Position numbers and translations under genes: made by a program. Of a DNA stretch of 64,000 bases, positions 3,360 to 13,488 are shown piece after piece. The notes beneath the pieces were generated by a model, which saw only the letters and a program-made list of their open reading frames with translations, was not told where the DNA came from and did no database searches. Within the stretch, counting starts at the first letter, position 1. Each line of letters starts with the position of its first letter. Source of the stretch: Cyclobacteriaceae bacterium (GTDB lineage Bacteria; Bacteroidota; Bacteroidia; Cytophagales; Cyclobacteriaceae); NCBI GenBank assembly GCA_013141055.1, contig JABFRS010000001.1, positions 744,001 to 808,000 on the forward strand, read 5' to 3'.

Positions 3360-3938
3360 TTATGGGAGATCGGTATGTGGAACTTTCATTTTACTCTCCG
3401 CATACCGCTTTACGGAGTATCCGACGAGCAATCCAAACATGGAAAAGCCCAGCACGATAAAAAGTACATTTTCCTCAAAGGAGCGTGGAGTGAGTTCAAA
3501 AGCCACTCCCGCAATGTATCCTACCGAACTTACAGTCGTTGCCCACATAAGTCCGGCAAGGATGCTGTAGCCTAAAAACTGAATTACTTTGATGTCGCTC
3601 ATCCCGATCATGAGGGGCAGGATCACCCGGAAGCCATAAAGAAAGCGGTAGCTGAAAAGAATCTGGAGGCGGTGAGTTTTGAAAAACTTCTGTGTGGGCG
3701 CCAGCTTTGCTTTGAGGTTTGGCCTCTTGTCGACAAAGTATTTCCCATTCAGTCGCCCGATGGTAAAGTAAAGCCAGTCGCTTACGAATGAACCAAAAAA
3801 GCCAAATAAGACCGTGTAAGGCCATTTAAAGAAGCCACTGCTTACTAATGAAGAGGCAACGAGGATGGCGGTCTCACCTTCAAAGAATGTTCCGATCGCT
3901 AGCGCGATGTAGCCGTACTGATGAAGAAACTCTTCCAT
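3360..3938 (-). CDS. DedA/SNARE-associated family membrane protein
   Basis: 192 residues from the ATG at 3938; a TTG at 3956 would add six residues but gives a weaker start. The family features visible are an N-terminal acidic motif (GTFFEGETAILVAS), a re-entrant/central segment with FSYRFLYGFRVILP, and further hydrophobic helices near the C-terminus. DedA proteins are inner-membrane proteins that support lipid carrier (undecaprenyl phosphate) or phospholipid translocation and membrane potential homeostasis. The gene is convergent with the upstream permease, its stop lying 2 bases from the permease stop. The exact lipid substrate cannot be told from sequence. Confidence 0.9.
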   Translation of the reverse strand: MEEFLHQYGYIALAIGTFFEGETAILVASSLVSSGFFKWPYTVLFGFFGSFVSDWLYFTIGRLNGKYFVDKRPNLKAKLAPTQKFFKTHRLQILFSYRFLYGFRVILPLMIGMSDIKVIQFLGYSILAGLMWATTVSSVGYIAGVAFELTPRSFEENVLFIVLGFSMFGLLVGYSVKRYAESKMKVPHTDLP

Positions 3939-4018
3939 TTCAATAATTACGTACAAGGTATCACTTCAAGATTTACTTCAATTGAAATCTTTTTCTTTTA
4001 AAAATCGTTGAAGGTTTA

Positions 4019-4051
4019 TTGGTATGATAACTTATTTATCCTTTATTTTTG
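4019..4051 (+). promoter_or_regulatory. Predicted Bacteroidota-type promoter of the arginine operon
   Basis: TATTTTTG at 4044-4051 matches the -7 consensus TAnnTTTG exactly. A TTG at 4019-4021 lies 22 bases upstream, within the usual spacing of the -33 element. Transcription would start near 4058, leaving about 50 bases before the leader ORF at 4110. The prediction rests on consensus and placement only. Confidence 0.6.
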
Positions 4052-4109
4052 TACAAATTTTTAGTGGACGTTAATAGCGATTACTACCAATTAACTTGTA
4101 ACAACGAAA

Positions 4110-4226
4110 TTGAAAAACAACTTCACCTTTGCAGCGATTACGGGCTCCTTCGATAGCCTGGTCCGCAGTTGGTTTATCTCACTCCCCGCAGTGATCAGAA
4201 GTTTCCGAAGGCAGATCAGGATTTGA
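4110..4226 (+). CDS. Putative arginine leader peptide (38 aa)
   Basis: Short ORF with a TTG start, lying between the predicted promoter and the first gene of the arginine operon. Arginine codons fall at positions 19, 30, 33, 34 and 37 of 38 (CGC, AGA, CGA, AGG, AGG), so four of the last nine codons are Arg. The stop (4224-4226) directly abuts a terminator-like hairpin beginning at 4228. This is the arrangement of ribosome-mediated attenuation in amino-acid operons: a ribosome stalled at 4206-4220 for lack of charged Arg-tRNA would cover the 5' arm of the hairpin. No clear Shine-Dalgarno, as usual for the phylum. The peptide itself has no evident function. Alternative: chance ORF in an untranslated leader. 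Confidence 0.6.
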   Translation: MKNNFTFAAITGSFDSLVRSWFISLPAVIRSFRRQIRI

Positions 4227-4227
4227 T

Positions 4228-4276
4228 AAGCATTCCACGCTTATATCGCGTTTCTGCACAAGCAGGGATGCTTTTT
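4228..4276 (+). terminator. Putative attenuator terminator of the arginine operon
   Basis: The arm 4228-4236 (AAGCATTCC) pairs over 9 positions, one of them G-U, with 4265-4273 (GGGATGCTT). A T-rich run ending the second arm and continuing to 4276 follows. The 28-base interior holds two small possible stems: ACGC/GCGT (4237-4240 with 4248-4251) and CTGC/GCAG (4254-4257 with 4262-4265). It sits 40 bases before the first structural gene and just after the leader ORF. A competing upstream pairing, CCTTCG (4147-4152) with CGAAGG (4206-4211), overlaps the arginine codons. The long interior makes it a weaker terminator than the textbook form. Confidence 0.55.
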
Positions 4277-4316
4277 CTACTTTCTATCGTTTTTTAATTT
4301 AATCAACATTACCCTA

Positions 4317-5054
4317 GTGGATCAGAACATTATAGTTCGCGAGGCAACTCCGGACGATAAAAAATATGCCGAGACCATCACCACAGAGATGGCAGAATCG
4401 GCCAAAGCGCGCGGCACCGGTATCGCCAAGCGTTCGCCGGACTACATCGAAATGAAGATGGAAGAAGGCAAAGCAGTCATTGCTGTCACTCCCGACGGCA
4501 CATGGGTTGGATTTTGCTACATCGAGGCCTGGGAGCATGAGAAATATGTCGCGAATTCCGGACTGATCGTATCTCCAGCTTTCCGCAAATCAGGAGTAGC
4601 CAAGGAGATCAAGAACAAGGTCTTTGCGCTTTCGCGGAAGAAATATCCAGATGCTAAGATTTTTGGCCTCACCACCGGACTGGCTGTAATGAAGATCAAC
4701 TCTGATCTCGGTTATGAGCCTGTCACCTATTCTGAACTCACCAACGATGAAGAGTTCTGGAAAGGCTGCCGGAGTTGCGTGAACTACGAAATTCTCATGA
4801 GCAAAGGTCGCAAGAATTGCATGTGCACCGCCATGCTCTACGACCCTGCAGAAAAAGCTGCTGAAGAGGCAGCTCGCATTGCCGCTCAGGTTCCAGTACC
4901 AGTAGCCAGGGAAAGCAAAGAGTTCGCCCTTAACTCAAAGATCTACGAACGATTTATGAGGCTCAAGCAATTCGTCATGCTGAAAGGCTGGCGCAAGAAG
5001 GACGAACCTGAAGAAAGGAAAAACTCCATTCTCAGCTTCCTGTTCTTCTGGTGA
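4317..5054 (+). CDS. GNAT acyltransferase, candidate first enzyme of arginine synthesis
   Basis: 245 residues from a GTG start. Residues about 1-160 form a GNAT fold: the acyl-CoA loop region reads SPAFRKSGVAKEI near 86-98, and the late strand carries LGYEPVTYSEL. Beyond it lie four cysteines in a CX2C...CXC array (C151, C154, C168, C170), suggesting a metal site, then a helical basic tail. It is the first gene of the arginine operon, and no canonical argA or argJ is present in the operon. I infer that it acylates glutamate, as N-acetyl- or, given the downstream transcarbamylase, N-succinylglutamate synthase. Family fold is clear; substrate is inference. Confidence 0.75.
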   Translation: MDQNIIVREATPDDKKYAETITTEMAESAKARGTGIAKRSPDYIEMKMEEGKAVIAVTPDGTWVGFCYIEAWEHEKYVANSGLIVSPAFRKSGVAKEIKNKVFALSRKKYPDAKIFGLTTGLAVMKINSDLGYEPVTYSELTNDEEFWKGCRSCVNYEILMSKGRKNCMCTAMLYDPAEKAAEEAARIAAQVPVPVARESKEFALNSKIYERFMRLKQFVMLKGWRKKDEPEERKNSILSFLFFW

Positions 5055-5146: not shown

Positions 5147-6346
5147 ATGAAGAAGAAAGTCGTTTTAGCATTCAGTGGCGGATTGGATACTTCCTACTGT
5201 GCTATCTATTTATCAAAAGACCTTGGCTATGAAGTTCATACCCTTACGGTAAATACGGGAGGATTCTCCAAAGAAGAACTGGCAGAAATTGAAAAGCGCG
5301 CTCTTGCCCTGGGAGTAGCCTCTCATAAGGCCGTAGAGGAAACTAAAAATTACTATGACAAAGTAATCAAGTACCTGATCTTCGGTAATGTTTTGAAAAA
5401 CGGCACCTATCCACTCAGCGTTAGTGCAGAGAGAATGTCTCAGGCGTTGGCCGCGGCTAACTATGCCGTGCAGATCGGCGCAGATGCCGTGGCTCATGGC
5501 AGCACTGGTGCAGGAAATGATCAGGTTCGTTTTGACATGGTCATCCAGATCCTCGGGCCCGGACTGGAGATCATCACTCCTATTCGTGACATGAAACTTA
5601 GCCGTGAGGCGGAAATAGAATACCTGAAATCAAAGGGTGTTATCTACAATTTCGAAAAAGCGAAGTACTCTATTAATAAAGGTCTTTGGGGAACATCCGT
5701 GGGTGGCAAAGAAACTCTTAACTCGATGGGAATGCTTCCCGAAGAGGCATGGCCAACTCAAATGACAAAAAAAGAAAGTGAAACCGTAACACTTGGATTT
5801 GAGAAGGGTGAATTGTTTGCCATCAATGGAAAAAAATTCTCTCATCCGTCCGAAGCGATTCAACATTTACAAACCATTGCCGGACCTTTTGGTCTTGGCA
5901 GAGATATTCACGTTGGCGACACCATCATTGGCATTAAAGGAAGAGTGGGGTTTGAAGCTGCAGCTCCCGTTGTAATCATCAAGGCGCATCATGCTCTTGA
6001 AAAACATGTGCTAACAAAATGGCAATTGACATGGAAGGATCAGCTTGCACAATTCTATGGAAACTGGCTTCACGAAGGACAGTATCTTGATCCAATCATG
6101 CGCGACATGGAAGCATTCCTGACAAGTGCTCAACAACACGTTACCGGGGAGGTTTCAATTACATTGTACCCTTATCGTTTCGTTATCAATGGGATTCAGT
6201 CAGCATATGATCTAATGTCTGCGAAATTCGGAAAGTATGGTGAGATGAATCTTGGCTGGAGCGGAGATGACGTAAAAGGATTTACAAAGATTTTCGGAAA
6301 CCAGGTAGGGATCTATCATCAGGTAAAAGCGGAAGCAGAAAAATAA
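5147..6346 (+). CDS. argG: Argininosuccinate synthase
   Basis: Joins citrulline and aspartate using ATP to make argininosuccinate, the penultimate step of arginine synthesis, in the cytoplasm. 399 residues, standard for the family. The N-terminal PP-loop ATP-binding motif is AFSGGLDTSY, and HGSTGAGNDQVRFDM marks the citrulline/aspartate region. The ATG at 5147 is preferred over a TTG two codons earlier because it places the PP-loop in the usual position. A 92-base gap separates it from the acyltransferase gene. argC follows after 5 bases, so both are surely in one transcript. Confidence 0.97.
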   Translation: MKKKVVLAFSGGLDTSYCAIYLSKDLGYEVHTLTVNTGGFSKEELAEIEKRALALGVASHKAVEETKNYYDKVIKYLIFGNVLKNGTYPLSVSAERMSQALAAANYAVQIGADAVAHGSTGAGNDQVRFDMVIQILGPGLEIITPIRDMKLSREAEIEYLKSKGVIYNFEKAKYSINKGLWGTSVGGKETLNSMGMLPEEAWPTQMTKKESETVTLGFEKGELFAINGKKFSHPSEAIQHLQTIAGPFGLGRDIHVGDTIIGIKGRVGFEAAAPVVIIKAHHALEKHVLTKWQLTWKDQLAQFYGNWLHEGQYLDPIMRDMEAFLTSAQQHVTGEVSITLYPYRFVINGIQSAYDLMSAKFGKYGEMNLGWSGDDVKGFTKIFGNQVGIYHQVKAEAEK

Positions 6347-6351
6347 AGAAT

Positions 6352-7320
6352 ATGATAAAAGCAGGCATCATCGGCGGAGCAGGATACACAGGCGGAGAAA
6401 CAGTTCGTCTGCTGTTGAATCACCCTGAAGCAGAGCTTGTATTTGTTCAAAGCCGCAGTCAGGCAGGAAAATATTTATCTGAAGTTCATGGAGATCTCGC
6501 GGGTGAAACAAATCTGAAATTTACTCCTGCTCATGAAGTGGCAGTGGATGTTATTTTCCTTTGCCTCAGTCATGGAGAAAGCAAAAAGTTTCTGACTGAA
6601 AATACTTTCACATCATCTACCCGTATCATTGATCTCGGAAATGATTTTCGTCTGGGGGATAAAGTTTCAGGTCGTGAGTTTGTTTATGGTCTTCCTGAAT
6701 TTCAACGCGAAGCCATTGTAAAAGCAAACAACATTGCCAATCCGGGATGCTTTGCCACGACAATTCAACTTGGATTGTTGCCTTTGGCAAAAGCCGGATT
6801 GTTAAAAGAAGTACACACTACCGGCATCACTGGCTCAACCGGCGCCGGCCAAAAACTTCAGGAGTCCACTCATTTTACATGGAGAGCTAATAACATTTCA
6901 GCTTACAAGACATTATCACATCAGCATCTTGGCGAGATCAATCAGACATTAAAGGCATTGCAGCCAGGCTTTGGAGGTGATGTAAACTTTGTGCCATGGC
7001 GTGGAGATTTCACCCGTGGGATTTTTGTGACATCCGTTGTGGAATGCTCGTTGTCAATCGAAGAAGCAAATAATCTTTATAAAAAATATTATGAGGGTCA
7101 CTTCTTTACGAATGTCTCTCCCACAATGATCGACATCAAGCAAGTGGTGAATACCAATAAGGCATTGATCCATCTTGAAAAAGTTGGAAAGAAGCTTGCC
7201 GTTCACTCCGTGACTGATAATTTACTGAAAGGTGCCAGCGGACAAGCAATTCAAAATATGAATCTTATGTTTGGCATAGATGAGACGGCAGGTCTTCATT
7301 TGAAATCAACAGCATTCTGA
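6352..7320 (+). CDS. argC: N-acyl-gamma-glutamyl-phosphate reductase
   Basis: Reduces N-acyl-glutamyl phosphate to the semialdehyde with NADPH, the third step of arginine synthesis. 322 residues. The N-terminal nucleotide-binding motif is GIIGGAGYTGGETVRLL. The catalytic cysteine lies in ANPGCFATTIQL. SHQHLGEI and the VPWRGDFTRGIF segment form the substrate pocket. ATG start 5 bases after argG. The acyl group it accepts (acetyl or succinyl) cannot be read from this enzyme alone; see the transcarbamylase. Confidence 0.95.
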   Translation: MIKAGIIGGAGYTGGETVRLLLNHPEAELVFVQSRSQAGKYLSEVHGDLAGETNLKFTPAHEVAVDVIFLCLSHGESKKFLTENTFTSSTRIIDLGNDFRLGDKVSGREFVYGLPEFQREAIVKANNIANPGCFATTIQLGLLPLAKAGLLKEVHTTGITGSTGAGQKLQESTHFTWRANNISAYKTLSHQHLGEINQTLKALQPGFGGDVNFVPWRGDFTRGIFVTSVVECSLSIEEANNLYKKYYEGHFFTNVSPTMIDIKQVVNTNKALIHLEKVGKKLAVHSVTDNLLKGASGQAIQNMNLMFGIDETAGLHLKSTAF

Positions 7321-7322
7321 TC

Positions 7323-8129
7323 ATGGCACAGAATAAAATAGCAATTCTCGGAACCGGCAACTTAGGGTCAGCGCTTGCAAAGGGAGTTGTGAAAGCCAAA
7401 CTTTCCAACGCATCGAACATTACCCTTACAAGAAGAAATCTCTCCAAGATAGAAGCGTTAAAGAAAGACGGCTTCAAGCTTTCAACAGATAATATTGCAT
7501 CCGTCAAAGGAGCAACGCTTATTATACTATGCGTTCAACCAAAGCAGCTTGCTGGATTACTGGCAGAAATTGCCTCCTCACTTGATCCTAAAAAACATAT
7601 TCTGGTTTCAACTATTACCGGGATCACAACAGAAGAAATAGCGTCCCATCTCCAGAAGAAAATTCCTATCGTCCGGGCGATGCCCAACACCGCAATCGCC
7701 ATTGGAACATCCATGACCTGCCTCTGTGCAAAAGACGCCAGTGAAAAACAATTGAATGACATTCAAAAACTATTCAATGCACTTGGAGTAACGCTCGTCA
7801 TTGAAGAACGCCTAATGAAGGCAGCCACCGTTTTGGCAGCAAGCGGTATTGCATTCTTCCTGCGTTATATCCGCGCTGCCACCCAAGGTGGAATTCAACT
7901 GGGTTTTGATGCCGAGGAAGCTCAGCTTATTGCAGCGCAAACCGCAAAGGGTGCGGCTTCACTCCTCTTAACCCAGGACTCTCATCCTGAAATTGAAATT
8001 GACAAAGTAACAACTCCTGAAGGTTGCACCATCGCCGGATTGAATGAGATGGAGCATCAGGGTTTAAGCAGCGCTCTCATCAAAGGTATTATCAGCTCAT
8101 ACGAGAAGATCAACAATATTAAAAAGTAG
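7323..8129 (+). CDS. proC: Pyrroline-5-carboxylate reductase
   Basis: Last enzyme of proline synthesis, reducing pyrroline-5-carboxylate to proline with NAD(P)H. 268 residues. The N-terminal Rossmann motif is AILGTGNLGSALAKG. The VRAMPNTAIAIG segment is typical, and the C-terminal dimer domain carries a version of the family signature (VTTPEGCTIAGLNEMEHQG). It starts 2 bases after the argC stop, so it is co-transcribed with arginine genes, placing proline and arginine synthesis under one control. A role acting on an arginine intermediate is possible but not indicated by the sequence. Confidence 0.93.
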   Translation: MAQNKIAILGTGNLGSALAKGVVKAKLSNASNITLTRRNLSKIEALKKDGFKLSTDNIASVKGATLIILCVQPKQLAGLLAEIASSLDPKKHILVSTITGITTEEIASHLQKKIPIVRAMPNTAIAIGTSMTCLCAKDASEKQLNDIQKLFNALGVTLVIEERLMKAATVLAASGIAFFLRYIRAATQGGIQLGFDAEEAQLIAAQTAKGAASLLLTQDSHPEIEIDKVTTPEGCTIAGLNEMEHQGLSSALIKGIISSYEKINNIKK

Positions 8130-8157: not shown

Positions 8158-9279
8158 ATGACCCTCTTCGACGTCTATCCTCTCTTTCCCATAACACCCA
8201 CCAAAGCTCAGGGATCATATCTCTGGGATGAGAAGGGAAAAAAGTATCTTGATTTATACGGAGGTCATGCTGTTATTTCTATCGGACATTCTCATCCTCA
8301 TTACATTAAGTCATTAACGGATCAGATCAATAAGATATCGTTCTATTCCAACAGCGTACAAAACCCCATTCAGGAAAAGCTCGCTGAAAAATTAGGACAG
8401 ATATCAGGATACCCTGATTACCAGCTTTTTCTCTGCAATTCCGGAGCGGAAGCAAATGAAAATGCATTGAAACTTGCATCATTTGTTACGGGCAGAAAAA
8501 AAGTCATCGCATTTAAGAAAGCATTTCACGGTCGTACCTCAGGCGCAGTAGCAGCAACTGATAATCCAAAAATTGTTGCTCCATTCAATGCTGGTCATGA
8601 CATCACATTTGTTCCAATGAATGATGAGTCTGCATTGAATGCTGTGATGGATAATTCCATTGCCGCAATCATCATTGAAGGAATTCAGGGTGTGGGTGGA
8701 ATTCAGGTTCCCGAAGAATCATTTTTAAAATTCCTTGAGAAGCAATGCAAAGCGCATGGGGCCATTCTGATCCTCGATGAAATTCAAAGCGGATACGGTC
8801 GCACCGGAAAGTTCTTTGCACATCAGCATGCAGGAATACGTCCTGATATTATTACTACGGCAAAGGGAATGGGCAACGGTTTCCCCATCGGAGGTGTATT
8901 CATCAATCCAGGCATAAAACCCTGGAGTGGCATGCTGGGAACAACCTTTGGCGGCAATTATCTCGCAAGCGTCGCAGGCCTGGCGGTAATCGAAGTAATG
9001 GAAAATGAAAAGCTAATCGAAAACGCAGCCACACTAGGCAACTACTGGCTTTCTGAACTTCGTAAATTCCCGACAATAAAAGAAGTTCGAGGACAGGGAT
9101 TGATGATCGGATTTGATCTTCCTGATGATAAAAAAGATGTAAGAACCAATCTGTTATTCAAGCATGCTATTTTTACAGGCGAAGCAAAACCTAATACCAT
9201 TCGTCTTCTGCCGTCATTGGGATTGACGAAAGAAGAAGCCGATATTTTCCTTAAAGCATTGAAAGAAGAACTCGCATGA
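8158..9279 (+). CDS. argD: N-acyl-ornithine aminotransferase
   Basis: PLP-dependent class III aminotransferase that converts N-acylglutamate semialdehyde and glutamate to N-acylornithine and 2-oxoglutarate. 373 residues, slightly short but complete. FLCNSGAEANENALK binds the cofactor phosphate, ILDEIQSGYGRTG holds the PLP aspartate, and TTAKGMGNGFPIG carries the Schiff-base lysine. Its last 4 bases overlap the next start (ATGA), so the pair is translationally coupled. Substrate acyl group inferred from context. Confidence 0.95.
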   Translation: MTLFDVYPLFPITPTKAQGSYLWDEKGKKYLDLYGGHAVISIGHSHPHYIKSLTDQINKISFYSNSVQNPIQEKLAEKLGQISGYPDYQLFLCNSGAEANENALKLASFVTGRKKVIAFKKAFHGRTSGAVAATDNPKIVAPFNAGHDITFVPMNDESALNAVMDNSIAAIIIEGIQGVGGIQVPEESFLKFLEKQCKAHGAILILDEIQSGYGRTGKFFAHQHAGIRPDIITTAKGMGNGFPIGGVFINPGIKPWSGMLGTTFGGNYLASVAGLAVIEVMENEKLIENAATLGNYWLSELRKFPTIKEVRGQGLMIGFDLPDDKKDVRTNLLFKHAIFTGEAKPNTIRLLPSLGLTKEEADIFLKALKEELA

Positions 9280-10226
9280 CAAATTTTATTTCGGTTAACG
9301 ACGTATCAGACATTAACGCTCTTGCTCAAAAAGCCCTTGCCTACAAAGCAGATCCGCGAAAGGATCAACATCTTGGAAGCAACAAACGAATTGGATTATT
9401 GTTCCTCAATCCAAGCATGCGGACACGTCTGAGCACTCAGGTGGCTGCTGCCAATCTCGGAATGGAAGCCATCGTATTTAATGTTGGTCAGGAAGGATGG
9501 TCACTGGAGTTTGAAGACGAAGCGATCATGAGCGGTACCACCGTTGAACACGTGAAAGACGCCGCACCAGTTCTCGGCAATTACTTCGACATTCTTGGTA
9601 TTCGCACTTTTCCATCACTGAAGAACAAGGAAGATGATTACAATGAACTTTATATAAAACAATTTATTAAGTACTCTGGTATTCCGGTAGTAAGTCTTGA
9701 AAGTGCAACAGTGCACCCACTTCAAAGTCTTACGGACATCATTACCATTAAAGAGTGCTATAAAGAAAAAAGAAAGCCAAAGATCGTTCTCACCTGGGCA
9801 CCTCACGTAAAGGCATTACCTCAATGCGTTGCCAACAGCTTTTCACAATGGGTGAACGCCTGGGGCGAAGCAGATTTTGTCATCACTCATCCGGAAGATT
9901 ATGACCTGGATAAAAAATTCACTGCTGGAGCTACCATTCAACATAACCAGGATGAAGCGTTAAGGAATGCCGATTTTGTTTATGTGAAAAACTGGAGCAC
10001 CTATGCCGATTACGGAAAGATCTATTGCAACGATCCGGAATGGATGCTTACCAATGAGAAACTGAAACTTACCAACAGCGCAAAAGTGATGCATTGTCTT
10101 CCGGTGAGAAGAAATGTTGAATTAAGTGATGAGATACTCGATGGGCCCAACAGTATTGTGACACAACAGGCGTCCAACCGGGTGTGGGCCGCTCAGGCAG
10201 TGTTGGCAGAGCTGTTGAAAAAATAG
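9276..10226 (+). CDS. argF': N-acyl-ornithine transcarbamylase, predicted succinylornithine type
   Basis: 316 residues. Carbamoyl-phosphate binding is shown by FLNPSMRTRLST and HPLQSLTDI, and the late motif is HCLPVRRNVELSD. These, plus the spacing, match the N-acetyl/N-succinyl-ornithine branch rather than ordinary ornithine transcarbamylase. At residue 90 the motif reads GTTVEH, so Val replaces the Glu that reads the acetyl group in the Xanthomonas enzyme and sits where the Bacteroides fragilis succinylornithine enzyme has Pro. From memory of that literature, Glu-to-Val or Pro changes switch preference to succinylornithine. Product would be N-succinylcitrulline, later deacylated by the argE product. 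Overlaps argD by 4 bases. Confidence 0.88.
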   Translation: MTNFISVNDVSDINALAQKALAYKADPRKDQHLGSNKRIGLLFLNPSMRTRLSTQVAAANLGMEAIVFNVGQEGWSLEFEDEAIMSGTTVEHVKDAAPVLGNYFDILGIRTFPSLKNKEDDYNELYIKQFIKYSGIPVVSLESATVHPLQSLTDIITIKECYKEKRKPKIVLTWAPHVKALPQCVANSFSQWVNAWGEADFVITHPEDYDLDKKFTAGATIQHNQDEALRNADFVYVKNWSTYADYGKIYCNDPEWMLTNEKLKLTNSAKVMHCLPVRRNVELSDEILDGPNSIVTQQASNRVWAAQAVLAELLKK

Positions 10227-10243
10227 AAATTGCATTACTCAGT

Positions 10244-11032
10244 ATGAATAAACTATACATCATCAAGATCGGAGGAAATGTACTCGACAATGAGAAATCA
10301 TTGTCAAAGTTCCTGAGCGACTTTGCTTCCATCCAGGCTCCGAAAATTCTTATTCATGGTGGCGGGACGATAGCAACAAAAATCGGCGATCAGCTTGGGA
10401 TAAAATCCAACTACATCAATGGAAGGAGAATCACCGATGCTCCTACCCTCGATCTTGTAACCATGGTGTATGGCGGATTGATCAACAAGCAAATGGTAGC
10501 TCAGCTGCAGAAGCTTGGATGCAATGCTATGGGTGTTACCGGTGCTGATGGCAACATGATCAAAGCCGTCAAACGACCTGTAAAAGAAACTGACTATGGT
10601 TTTGTCGGAGACATCACTCCCGACAGTGTTAATTCAACATTGCTCTATTTTCTGTTAAAACAAAATGTAATCCCGATCTTTGCTCCATTAACACACGCTG
10701 AAGGAGTGATCCTGAATACCAACGCAGATACCATCGCTTCCGTCCTTGCGGTTTCACTCAGCAAACATTTTGATGTCCGCTTGATATTCTGCTTCGAGAA
10801 GAAAGGTGTTCTGAAAAATATCAAAGATGAGAATTCCGTCATTCGTCTATTGAATACAGATACGTATAAACAATTACTGGCAGAAGGAGCTTTCGCCGAT
10901 GGAATTCTTCCCAAGCTTGAAAATTCATTCTCCGCTATTCAATCAGGAGTAAAAGAAGTTCTGATAGGACAGGCAGAAGATCTATTGAAGAATACCAAGG
11001 AAGAAACTGAAGGAACACTGATCAAGCACTAG
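10244..11032 (+). CDS. argB: N-acylglutamate kinase
   Basis: Phosphorylates N-acylglutamate, second step of arginine synthesis; amino acid kinase family. 262 residues from the ATG at 10244. An upstream GTG frame extension would overlap the previous gene and add nothing family-like. Visible motifs are KIGGN at the N-terminus (nucleotide), HGGGTIATKIGDQLGI (substrate loop), NGRRITDAPTLDLVTM, and INKQMVAQLQKLGCNAMGVT. It lacks the N-terminal helix typical of arginine-inhibited hexameric kinases, so feedback inhibition is not expected from sequence. It follows the transcarbamylase by 17 bases. Confidence 0.93.
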   Translation: MNKLYIIKIGGNVLDNEKSLSKFLSDFASIQAPKILIHGGGTIATKIGDQLGIKSNYINGRRITDAPTLDLVTMVYGGLINKQMVAQLQKLGCNAMGVTGADGNMIKAVKRPVKETDYGFVGDITPDSVNSTLLYFLLKQNVIPIFAPLTHAEGVILNTNADTIASVLAVSLSKHFDVRLIFCFEKKGVLKNIKDENSVIRLLNTDTYKQLLAEGAFADGILPKLENSFSAIQSGVKEVLIGQAEDLLKNTKEETEGTLIKH

Positions 11033-11034
11033 TT

Positions 11035-12102
11035 TTGAACAAAGACCAACTATATCGCACTGCACTTGATCTTCTTCAACAACTGATCGCCATTCCGTCT
11101 TTTAGCCGGGAAGAAAATAAAACAGCTGACCTCCTGGAAGATTTCTTTCGCAAGCATTCGATCGAACCGCTCAGAAAAGGAAACAATGTCTGGGTGCTGA
11201 ATGAATTTTATTCGGTCGATAAGCCAACGCTACTCTTAAATTCCCATCACGATACAGTAAAGCCAAATCCTGGTTATACACGCGAACCTTTTGCTGCAAC
11301 CATCGAAGACGGAAAACTTTTTGGTTTGGGAAGCAATGATGCAGGCGGACCGTTGGTTTCTCTGATCGCAACGTTTCTTTATTTCAATGATCAAAAGGAT
11401 TTAAAATACAACGTCATTTTCGCAGCTTCCGCTGAAGAGGAGATTTCCGGTCATCAGGGAATCGAAAGCATCTGGTCGTCGCTTCCCAAAATTGATTTTG
11501 CAATTGTCGGAGAGCCAACCCTCACAGATATCGCTGTGGCGGAAAAGGGACTGATGGTAATTGATTGCGTCAGCCACGGTAAGGCGGGTCATGCTGCACG
11601 TGAAGAAGGTGACAATGCGATATACAATGCATTGAAAGATATTGAATGGTTCAGAACTTACGCATTTCCAAAGATTTCAAAGTCATTGGGAAAAGTAAAG
11701 ATGTCTGTAACGGTCATCAACGCCGGACAAGCTCATAACCAGGTACCACCGGAATGTAAATTCACAGTTGACATTCGCGTGACGGATGCTTACACATTGG
11801 AGGAAGTGCTGGCGATCATCAAAGAAAATGTGAGGTGCACCATTACTCCACGATCTCTTCGTCTCCGTCCTTCCGGAATAGCAGACGATCATTCGCTGGT
11901 AGTCGCTGCGAAAAAACTTGGCAAGAAACTTTATGGATCACCCACTACCTCCGATCAGGCATTGATTCCTGTTGATTCGATCAAGATGGGGCCGGGAGAT
12001 TCTGCAAGGTCACACAGCGCGGATGAGTTTATCTACGTGAATGAAATATCCGAAGGAATTGATTCCTACATTTCGCTCATTGAGGAAAGCGCAAAAGCCT
12101 GA
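11035..12102 (+). CDS. argE: M20 deacylase of the arginine pathway (N-acylcitrulline/ornithine deacylase)
   Basis: 355 residues, TTG start 2 bases after argB. M20 metallopeptidase features: NSHHDTV (first zinc ligand and catalytic Asp), LGSNDAGGP (bridging Asp), SAEEEISG (catalytic Glu pair), and GPGDSARSHSADE (C-terminal ligand). It should remove the acyl group late in the pathway. With an N-acylornithine transcarbamylase as the neighbour, the natural substrate is N-acylcitrulline. A DapE-like role is the main alternative, but the operon argues against it. Confidence 0.88.
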   Translation: MNKDQLYRTALDLLQQLIAIPSFSREENKTADLLEDFFRKHSIEPLRKGNNVWVLNEFYSVDKPTLLLNSHHDTVKPNPGYTREPFAATIEDGKLFGLGSNDAGGPLVSLIATFLYFNDQKDLKYNVIFAASAEEEISGHQGIESIWSSLPKIDFAIVGEPTLTDIAVAEKGLMVIDCVSHGKAGHAAREEGDNAIYNALKDIEWFRTYAFPKISKSLGKVKMSVTVINAGQAHNQVPPECKFTVDIRVTDAYTLEEVLAIIKENVRCTITPRSLRLRPSGIADDHSLVVAAKKLGKKLYGSPTTSDQALIPVDSIKMGPGDSARSHSADEFIYVNEISEGIDSYISLIEESAKA

Positions 12103-12156: not shown

Positions 12157-13488
12157 ATGAAATTGTGGCAAAAAGATAAAGATTCTCTAAAAGAGGTAAC
12201 TGAATTCACAACCGGTAGTGACCGCGAGCTGGATCTTTATCTGGCAAGCTTCGATGTGCTGGGATCTCTTGCCCATATCACCATGCTGGAGTCCATTGGA
12301 CTTCTGACCAAGGACGAGTTGAAGACACTCTCTTCAGAATTAAAAAGCATCTACAAGACTATTGAAAGCGGAAAGTTTACCATAGAAGATGGCGTTGAAG
12401 ATATCCACTCACAGGTTGAGCTTCTTCTTACCAAAAAACTGGGGGATGTCGGTAAGAAAATACACAGTGGCAGATCCCGCAATGATCAGGTGCTCGTTGA
12501 CTCCAAATTGTTCCTCCGTCACGAGATCCAATTGCTCGTTGAAGAAATAAAAAATCTATTTGACCTGTTGATTGCCAAAAGTGAAGAACATAAGAATGTG
12601 CTTCTTCCAGGCTATACCCATCTGCAACTGGCCATGCCTTCTTCTTTCGGGCTTTGGCTTGGCGCTTACGCAGAAAGTCTGGTGGACGATGTGATCACAC
12701 TACAGTCGGCATACCAGATCGTGAATAAAAATCCGTTGGGGTCAGGAGCAGGTTATGGATCTTCATTTCCTCTCAACAGAAAGATGACGACAAATCTGCT
12801 GGGATTCAATGATCTTAATTACAATGTAGTCTACGCACAAATGGGACGCGGAAAAAGCGAACGCATTGTTGCCTCCGCAATGGGCAATGTCGCAGCCACT
12901 CTTGCAAAGCTCTCAATGGATGCATGCCTCTATCTCAATCAGAATTTTGGATTCATTAGCTTCCCTGAAGAACTGACGACAGGATCCAGCATCATGCCGC
13001 ACAAGAAAAATCCAGATGTATTTGAATTGATCCGCGCGAAGTGCAATCTTCTGCAGGCATTACCAAACGATCTGATTCTCCTTACCTCCAACTTACCTTC
13101 CGGATATCATCGCGATCTCCAGTTGTTAAAAGAGAAATTGTTCCCGGCGATTAAAACACTTAAAGATTGCCTTAAGATGACTCAATTGATGTTGTCGAAT
13201 CTTGAGGTGAAGCAAAACATTCTCGCAGACGAAAAGTATAAATTTCTTTTCAGTGTAGAGGAAGTGAATAAGCTTGTGCTGAAGGGAATTCCTTTCCGTG
13301 ATGCTTATAAAAAAGTGGGGCAGGAAATTGAGCAGGGTAAGTTTACTTATTCAACAGAAGTCAAGCACACTCATGAAGGAAGCATTGGAAATCTATCTAC
13401 CGATAACATTGTCAGAATGATGGATCAGCAGATGAACTCCTTTGCCTTTACTAAAACTGAACAGGCTCTGAAACAACTATTAAGCTGA
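12157..13488 (+). CDS. argH: Argininosuccinate lyase
   Basis: Splits argininosuccinate into arginine and fumarate, completing the pathway. 443 residues, fumarase/aspartase superfamily. HSGRSRNDQVLVD and PGYTHLQLAMPSS form the substrate site, and the flexible signature loop is GSSIMPHKKNP. ATG start, 54 bases after argE, the widest gap among the later operon genes. A TAACTTTG at 12145-12152 resembles a promoter element but has no -33 partner and would make a nearly leaderless transcript. Confidence 0.96.
   Translation: MKLWQKDKDSLKEVTEFTTGSDRELDLYLASFDVLGSLAHITMLESIGLLTKDELKTLSSELKSIYKTIESGKFTIEDGVEDIHSQVELLLTKKLGDVGKKIHSGRSRNDQVLVDSKLFLRHEIQLLVEEIKNLFDLLIAKSEEHKNVLLPGYTHLQLAMPSSFGLWLGAYAESLVDDVITLQSAYQIVNKNPLGSGAGYGSSFPLNRKMTTNLLGFNDLNYNVVYAQMGRGKSERIVASAMGNVAATLAKLSMDACLYLNQNFGFISFPEELTTGSSIMPHKKNPDVFELIRAKCNLLQALPNDLILLTSNLPSGYHRDLQLLKEKLFPAIKTLKDCLKMTQLMLSNLEVKQNILADEKYKFLFSVEEVNKLVLKGIPFRDAYKKVGQEIEQGKFTYSTEVKHTHEGSIGNLSTDNIVRMMDQQMNSFAFTKTEQALKQLLS

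Follow-up and report, generated by a model that had tools for sequence, protein, structure and literature searches.

How does a bacterium that lacks the arginine repressor adjust arginine synthesis to arginine supply? Arginine genes are regulated, via tRNA charging or arginine level, by the arginine T-boxes of Firmicutes and by ArgR or AhrC, and leader-peptide attenuation is, to our knowledge, not a textbook mechanism for this amino acid. The question is raised by a locus in the window analyzed here, a stretch of 64,000 nucleotides from a Cyclobacteriaceae bacterium (contig JABFRS010000001.1, positions 744,001 to 808,000, forward strand), in which a first-pass annotation had recognized a nine-gene arginine operon downstream of a short leader ORF. 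Open reading frames and NCBIfam matches bear out this operon, the matches of several genes falling under the curated cut-off (Table 1). The operon also stands in a setting without ArgR: a search for ArgR_C in 58 relatives, the window's genome included, gave 0 positives. Of these genomes, 47 have a completeness of 90% or more, and 8 of 14 control genomes were positive. We consider it fairly likely that the 5' region of the operon is a ribosome-mediated, arginine-specific attenuator, in which a tiny gene ending in arginine codons probably lets the ribosome gauge the arginine supply ahead of the operon. Comparison among genomes demonstrates, at the level of sequence, the leader ORF, its arginine end, the promoter box, hairpin B, the operon context and the lack of ArgR.

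Table 1. Features of the leader region and of the arginine operon (positions are those of the window).
Feature	Position	Strand	Description	Basis
Bacteroidota-type -7 promoter box	4044-4051	+	TATTTTTG	present in 42/46 leaders
Leader ORF	4110-4226	+	TTG start, 38 codons, ending RSFRRQIRI-stop; stop TGA 4224-4226	Arg-rich end conserved
Control region, Arg codons	4197-4220	+	AGA 4197-4199, CGA 4206-4208, AGG 4209-4211, AGG 4218-4220	
Hairpin A	4226-4244	+	at stop codon, ATAAGC/GCTTAT	part of best fold
Hairpin B, predicted intrinsic terminator	4248-4276	+	10-pair stem 4248-4271, 4-base loop, then TTTTT	stem covaries in relatives
Alternative helix of the first-pass annotation	4228-4236 with 4265-4273	+	AAGCATTCC with GGGATGCTT; incompatible with hairpin B	folding energy
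GNAT-type acetyltransferase, first operon gene	4317-5054	+		ORF; no NCBIfam match
argG	5147-6346	+		ORF and NCBIfam
argC	6352-7320	+		ORF and NCBIfam
proC	7323-8129	+		ORF and NCBIfam
argD-type transaminase	8158-9279	+		ORF and NCBIfam
N-acetylornithine carbamoyltransferase-like gene	9276-10226	+		ORF and NCBIfam
argB	10244-11032	+		ORF and NCBIfam
ArgE/DapE-family deacylase	11035-12102	+		ORF and NCBIfam
argH	12157-13488	+		ORF and NCBIfam

The leader ORF, with the four arginines among its final nine codons that had been reported for it, is borne out by the sequence and encodes MKNNFTFAAITGSFDSLVRSWFISLPAVIRSFRRQIRI. A promoter had been placed upstream of it as well; one is indeed present, the better site being the match to what we take to be the Bacteroidota -7 box consensus, TANNTTTG. 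The box is found in the leaders of 42 of 46 testable relatives, compared with 4.0 in block shuffles. A promoter scan of positions 3900-4400 of the window found no sigma-70 consensus site.

The arginine codons at the end of the ORF are conserved in relatives, a check that the first-pass annotation had called for. The GNAT gene was detected in 43 of the 58 searched relatives, and the upstream stretches were taken from there. All 31 same-genus loci have Ile-Arg-Ile-stop as the leader end; a small ORF ahead of GNAT with at least three Arg in its last nine codons occurs in 30 of them (shuffled mean, 1.6) and one with at least four in 24 (shuffled, 0.2). Leader L020 is cut by a contig end and lacks its start. 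A scan of named genomes, comprising 80 loci among the matches listed and sharing several organisms with the 58-relative search, yielded at least three Arg, among the matches listed, in 30/31 Cytophagales-type loci (shuffled, 2.6) and in 34/49 Chitinophagales-type loci (shuffled, 2.5). The leaders of Ohtaekwangia and Chryseolinea have the C-terminal end TRRPRPVRFARI-stop or similar; those of Chitinophagaceae end in PRPRRGF-stop, PRRRPGC-stop or SRRGC-stop. The gene context is equally stable, with argG present in 29 of the 30 loci L001-L030 and, among the matches listed, in 77 of the 80 named-genome loci; the four loci without argG are short or end-cut stretches.

For residue-level analysis, 48 distinct leaders were picked by their Arg-Ile ending, so that Ile at -1 and the penultimate Arg are present by construction. 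A TTG start lies 30-56 codons ahead of the stop in 46 of the 48 (for L022, the likelier start is an ATG four codons downstream), and Arg occupies position -5 in 47. The penultimate arginine is written with all six of its codons (CGT 15, AGA 11, CGG 8, AGG 6, CGA 5, CGC 3), which argues for selection on the amino acid and points to its being read by tRNA. CGA and AGG together account for 58% of the arginine codons in the leaders but for 21% of those in 35 long ORFs of the window, a bias that is only suggestive because the leaders are related. The CGA-AGG pair at -6/-5 (CGA-AGG-CA at 4206-4214 in the window) is nearly fixed in its nucleotides, the other Arg codons being variable, which hints at a constraint on the RNA; pairing of GAAGGC with GCTTTT downstream of hairpin B is possible, the segment test for it being non-significant (p 0.12). 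The frame of leader L009 is broken 5' of the Arg codons by one G missing relative to L014, which could be an assembly error.

The same positions bear on a quite improbable alternative, in which the nascent RRQIRI peptide would halt the ribosome at UGA in response to free arginine bound in the tunnel, much as tryptophan induces ribosome arrest by the nascent TnaC peptide. Such an arrest would fit the near-fixed CGA-AGG, the Ile at -3 in 40 of the 48 leaders and at -1 in all 48 (the latter by construction) and the TGA stop codon in 48/48; the conserved Ile exceeds what pure codon counting needs. However, outside the window's lineage the non-Arg residues change completely while Arg stays, and an arrest at high arginine would raise expression by occlusion, which for a biosynthetic operon is the wrong sign unless the RNA wiring is inverted.

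How far the leader extends beyond the close relatives was assessed in 296 genomes of the Bacteroidota phylum. GNAT is found in 124, and the regions upstream of 120 were read, for the best copy only; excluded were the genome of the window, two genomes already read and one locus lying too close to the end of its contig. Small ORFs of 10-70 codons with a stop 30-300 nt upstream of the GNAT match have at least four Arg in the last nine codons in 44 of the 120 regions (shuffled, 2.0, sd 1.3) and at least three in 67 (shuffled, 10.6, sd 2.4), some single matches at the latter threshold being due to chance. Among other residues at the level of at least four, Gly (4; shuffled, 0.1) and Lys (3; shuffled, 0.8) come nowhere near Arg; at the level of at least three, Ile is also raised (25; shuffled, 15.2). 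By family, designated here by f numbers, Arg leaders occur in f41 (25/26), f1 (7/7), f23 (8/9), f22 (5/7), f26 (4/5), f25 (11/28), f42 (3/9), f24 (1/4), f55 (1/7), f40 (0/4) and f29 (0/2), and the remaining surveyed families are represented by one or two genomes each. Flavobacterium-like members of f25, in which the criterion did not find an Arg-rich end, are counted as misses. In 19 of 20 loci chosen across families, GNAT is followed by argG and argC. The IRI-stop ending is seen in the window's genus and not elsewhere in the phylum; outside the window's lineage the leaders end in PRRRPGC-stop, PRPRRGF-stop, RRRP-stop or IPRRR-stop.

Two further arrangements were seen in f25. Five loci (L195, L224, L227, L246, L249) carry tandem Arg-rich small ORFs, about 240-310 and 95-165 nt before GNAT. 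In genus g31 (L203, L204, L208, L209, L213 and others), a peptide like SRTNxPxTSPEVRMLSL-stop, with few Arg, lies about 240-265 nt before GNAT.

A functional small protein as the product of the ORF, or an ORF persisting as a remnant devoid of a regulatory role, appears most improbable. The N-terminal blocks of the ORF are conserved inside subgroups, as a functional protein might require, but from one subgroup to another the N-terminal two thirds vary freely, whereas both the Arg end and its spacing from GNAT stay constant, and the shuffles exclude chance. We regard cis-regulation that senses arginine as highly likely.

What the sensor would act upon is suggested by the RNA that follows. The fold of 4224-4276 is more stable than 300/300 dinucleotide shuffles (z -4.4), and a terminator scan selects the hairpin B stem as its one find (0.4 expected in shuffles). 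The first-pass annotation had drawn a hairpin with a T-run from a different helix, which itself runs into the T-run; when forced, this helix gives -16.6 kcal/mol versus -19.3 for hairpins A and B together, that is, 2.7 kcal/mol weaker. A hairpin with a T-run stands, as terminator and by its covariation, whereas the helix originally drawn is less stable than A plus B and cannot coexist with the better terminator. The covariation in relatives that had been named as a check is found in stem B, for hairpins picked as the best per tail. Many relatives also have a hairpin at the position of A, and across 45 loci the signal exceeds shuffles weakly (mean z -1.0).

Across the 48 leaders, hairpin B usually lies 20-34 nt 3' of the stop. 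Its loop is a triloop in 35, with NAG in 26 of those; the stem uses many pair types, and the first three pairs next to the triloop are standard in 35/35. The choice of the best hairpin per tail biases both this table of pair types and the segment-pair test. A conserved GTGCTTT follows hairpin B in many of these leaders. With the tails of the 48 leaders aligned by MAFFT alone, RNAalifold returned no structure.

Taken together, the sequences are compatible with the following scheme. Transcription would start just 3' of the promoter box, and the 38-codon leader would then be translated. With arginine plentiful, the ribosome would pass the terminal Arg codons, stop at the TGA and leave; hairpin B with its T5 would form, and the transcript would end ahead of the GNAT gene. 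With charged tRNA-Arg scarce, the ribosome would wait at the Arg codons, which lie at the leader's extreme 3' end; there it would melt or block the RNA at and just past the stop codon (hairpin A), and the transcript would be extended. A ribosome on the Arg codons is the simplest reading of the sensor; that it responds to tRNA-Arg charging, and with this sign, we infer. Termination at hairpin B is the favored output in the window, and for its lineage as a whole we find transcription termination a reasonably probable output.

One element of the earlier proposal is not supported, namely, that the stalled ribosome covers the 5' arm of the hairpin and so gives read-through. The footprint of a ribosome stalled at the last Arg codon presumably has its edge at about 4232-4235, so the 5' arm of hairpin B would be out of its cover. 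Nor did comparison reveal the switch itself. Pairing of the Arg region with the 5' arm of hairpin B was rejected as a general antiterminator, the cognate pairing (-7.9 kcal/mol) being no better than the non-cognate one (-8.2; p 0.39). In ribosome-masked folding, the change in the probability of hairpin B between a stall at the stop and one at the first Arg was not above that of chimeras (p 0.77, n=44), and in the window this probability is at least 0.97 in every modelled ribosome state. A clear shift of the classical kind occurs in 7 of the 44 (L008, L014, L021, L028, L029, L049, L066) and the opposite shift in a few (L009, L025, L072). When all segment pairs were compared, in a test biased as described above, only the two arms of hairpin B paired better with their cognates at p<0.05. 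Melting of the stop-proximal RNA leading to loss of hairpin B found no support in the tests run. The his/trp-type logic first suggested for the locus is supported in its Arg leader and terminator; three comparative tests for an antiterminator were negative, and a classical antiterminator switch seems less likely than not.

Rho-dependent termination or translation control could be the output instead, a parked ribosome barring Rho or opening a structure at the stop codon, with hairpin B incidental or secondary. We judge this unlikely given the strong hairpin with T5 in the window and the enrichment of terminator-like hairpins after the leader in the window's lineage (39/48 by a loose criterion; shuffled, 6.4), although many members have no T-run directly at hairpin B. 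In three other lineages, such hairpins are rare or absent, as the alternative would have it: Chitinophagaceae 8/49 (shuffled, 3.4), f41 0/25 and f25 0/9. The counts for smaller samples are f23 2/8 (shuffled, 1.8), f22 1/5 (1.0) and f26 2/4 (0.2). In Chitinophagaceae, a conserved stem, CTGATAGG/CCTATCAG, instead has the stop codon inside its 5' arm, with TGA paired in 49/49 loci; the exact core of this stem occurs once per genome in the 6/6 genomes searched. The gap between leader and GNAT also speaks for a non-terminator output: it measures about 100-130 nt and is poor in G (in f41, 0.124 as against 0.255 for C). Translation control by start sequestration is disfavored because the mean unpaired probability of the GNAT start region, 0.58-0.65, indicates no strong pairing.

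Other RNA elements accompany the leader in other groups. A hairpin with the loop AGGTG[AT]GTCC, one of them approximate, is present in 12 of the 28 f25 loci, and its cognate halves pair better than non-cognate ones (p 0.004, n=9). In f41, a helix spanning about -44 to +50 around the Arg codons shows apparent compensatory changes, the segment test being non-significant (p 0.058). Loci L074-L123 share a very conserved RNA core, CGACGTGG-N-TGCTGATAGG-CGAG...CCCCTATCAGTG, which spans the last codons of the leader and the stop; the three loci scanned gave no Rfam match to it.

Because terminators are frequent only in the window's lineage and other RNA elements are found elsewhere, there is apparently one sensor with several outputs. 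A common theme, we infer, would be RNA near or holding the stop codon that is kept open by a ribosome on the last Arg codons. More broadly, we propose, tentatively and with somewhat less than even confidence, that one Arg-ended leader sensor operates across much of Bacteroidota where ArgR is missing and that its output RNA has been replaced repeatedly: a terminator in the window's lineage, the stop-codon stem in Chitinophagaceae, the fixed-loop hairpin and tandem leaders in f25, and the long-range helix in f41. At least one of these routes would be neither intrinsic termination nor start sequestration as described so far.

The distribution of ArgR across the phylum fits this proposal as an association, since both distributions follow the phylogeny, and not as a tally of independent replacements. 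ArgR_C is found in 109 of the 296 genomes, and ArgR and GNAT occur together in 3 of 124 (G097, G292, G300). The match in G097 (25.0 bits, with an internal stop) is probably spurious; in G292 and G300, an ArgR gene lies directly ahead of GNAT, and an Arg leader was not found there.

Leader-peptide attenuation appears, on comparative evidence, to be at home in the window's genus. A His-rich leader precedes hisG in 12/12 same-genus loci (L270, from the window's genome, and L260-L265, L267-L269, L271 and L272), followed, as judged by eye, by a hairpin and T-run; in the window's genome it ends in NIHLHHHHALAC-stop. Three hisG loci from other families of the order yielded no such leader with a terminator (0/3).

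The conserved arginine leader is real and, as far as searched, new for this operon. The literature searched, mostly outside subscription journals and in part available as excerpts (PMC1183508 and PMC4833913 among it), contains no description of an arginine-operon leader peptide in Bacteroidota, in line with the suggestion that the system is undescribed in this lineage. If the scheme is correct, arginine synthesis is under ribosomal control in a large phylum that lacks ArgR in the lineages at issue, and one sensor joined to different RNA outputs would provide a natural series for attenuator evolution and stalled-ribosome switching. The leader would also offer arginine reporters for Bacteroidota.

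Several known systems invite comparison. In the Salmonella speF leader, orf34 is a small reading frame containing Arg codons, and its translation when arginine is low or high alters the fold of the leader RNA; according to the excerpted text, the consecutive Arg codons 12-13 matter and the stop-adjacent one does not, and Rho and RNase G are involved (PMC6386406). Unlike the leader described here, which precedes an arginine synthesis operon, orf34 controls ornithine decarboxylase (PMC6386406). The leader peptide rbfL of Staphylococcus aureus also contains Arg codons at which the ribosome pauses at low arginine, but, as excerpted, it reduces translation of a biofilm regulator, whose ribosome-binding site becomes occluded, and serves no arginine operon (PMC13009471). 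Within the same phylum, structured 5' regions of Flavobacterium psychrophilum provide clues for leader-peptide attenuation at amino-acid operons, with pheA and hisG named and arginine unmentioned in section 19 of that article (PMC9723704). For Actinobacteria, the excerpted text reports no conserved RNA structures upstream of arginine operons (PMC1262725). The present leaders differ from arginine T-boxes and from ArgR/AhrC regulation in that Rfam gave no match in the window at gathering score and none credible in 8 leader loci, and in the lack of ArgR from all 58 relatives.

The closest parallel is with the his and trp leaders. Here, the amino acid is arginine, its codons cluster at the extreme 3' end of the ORF, a conserved antiterminator was not found, and the terminator is missing in other lineages (f41, f25). 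Because the Arg leader is far wider in the phylum than the terminator, it is not established that the output generally follows his/trp wiring, and membership in the class is not proven, since the switch was not found. Judged by its sequence, the leader would nonetheless work like a his/trp attenuator, with which it shares codons for the end product of the operon, hairpins including a terminator, and a setting in which no other regulator was found.
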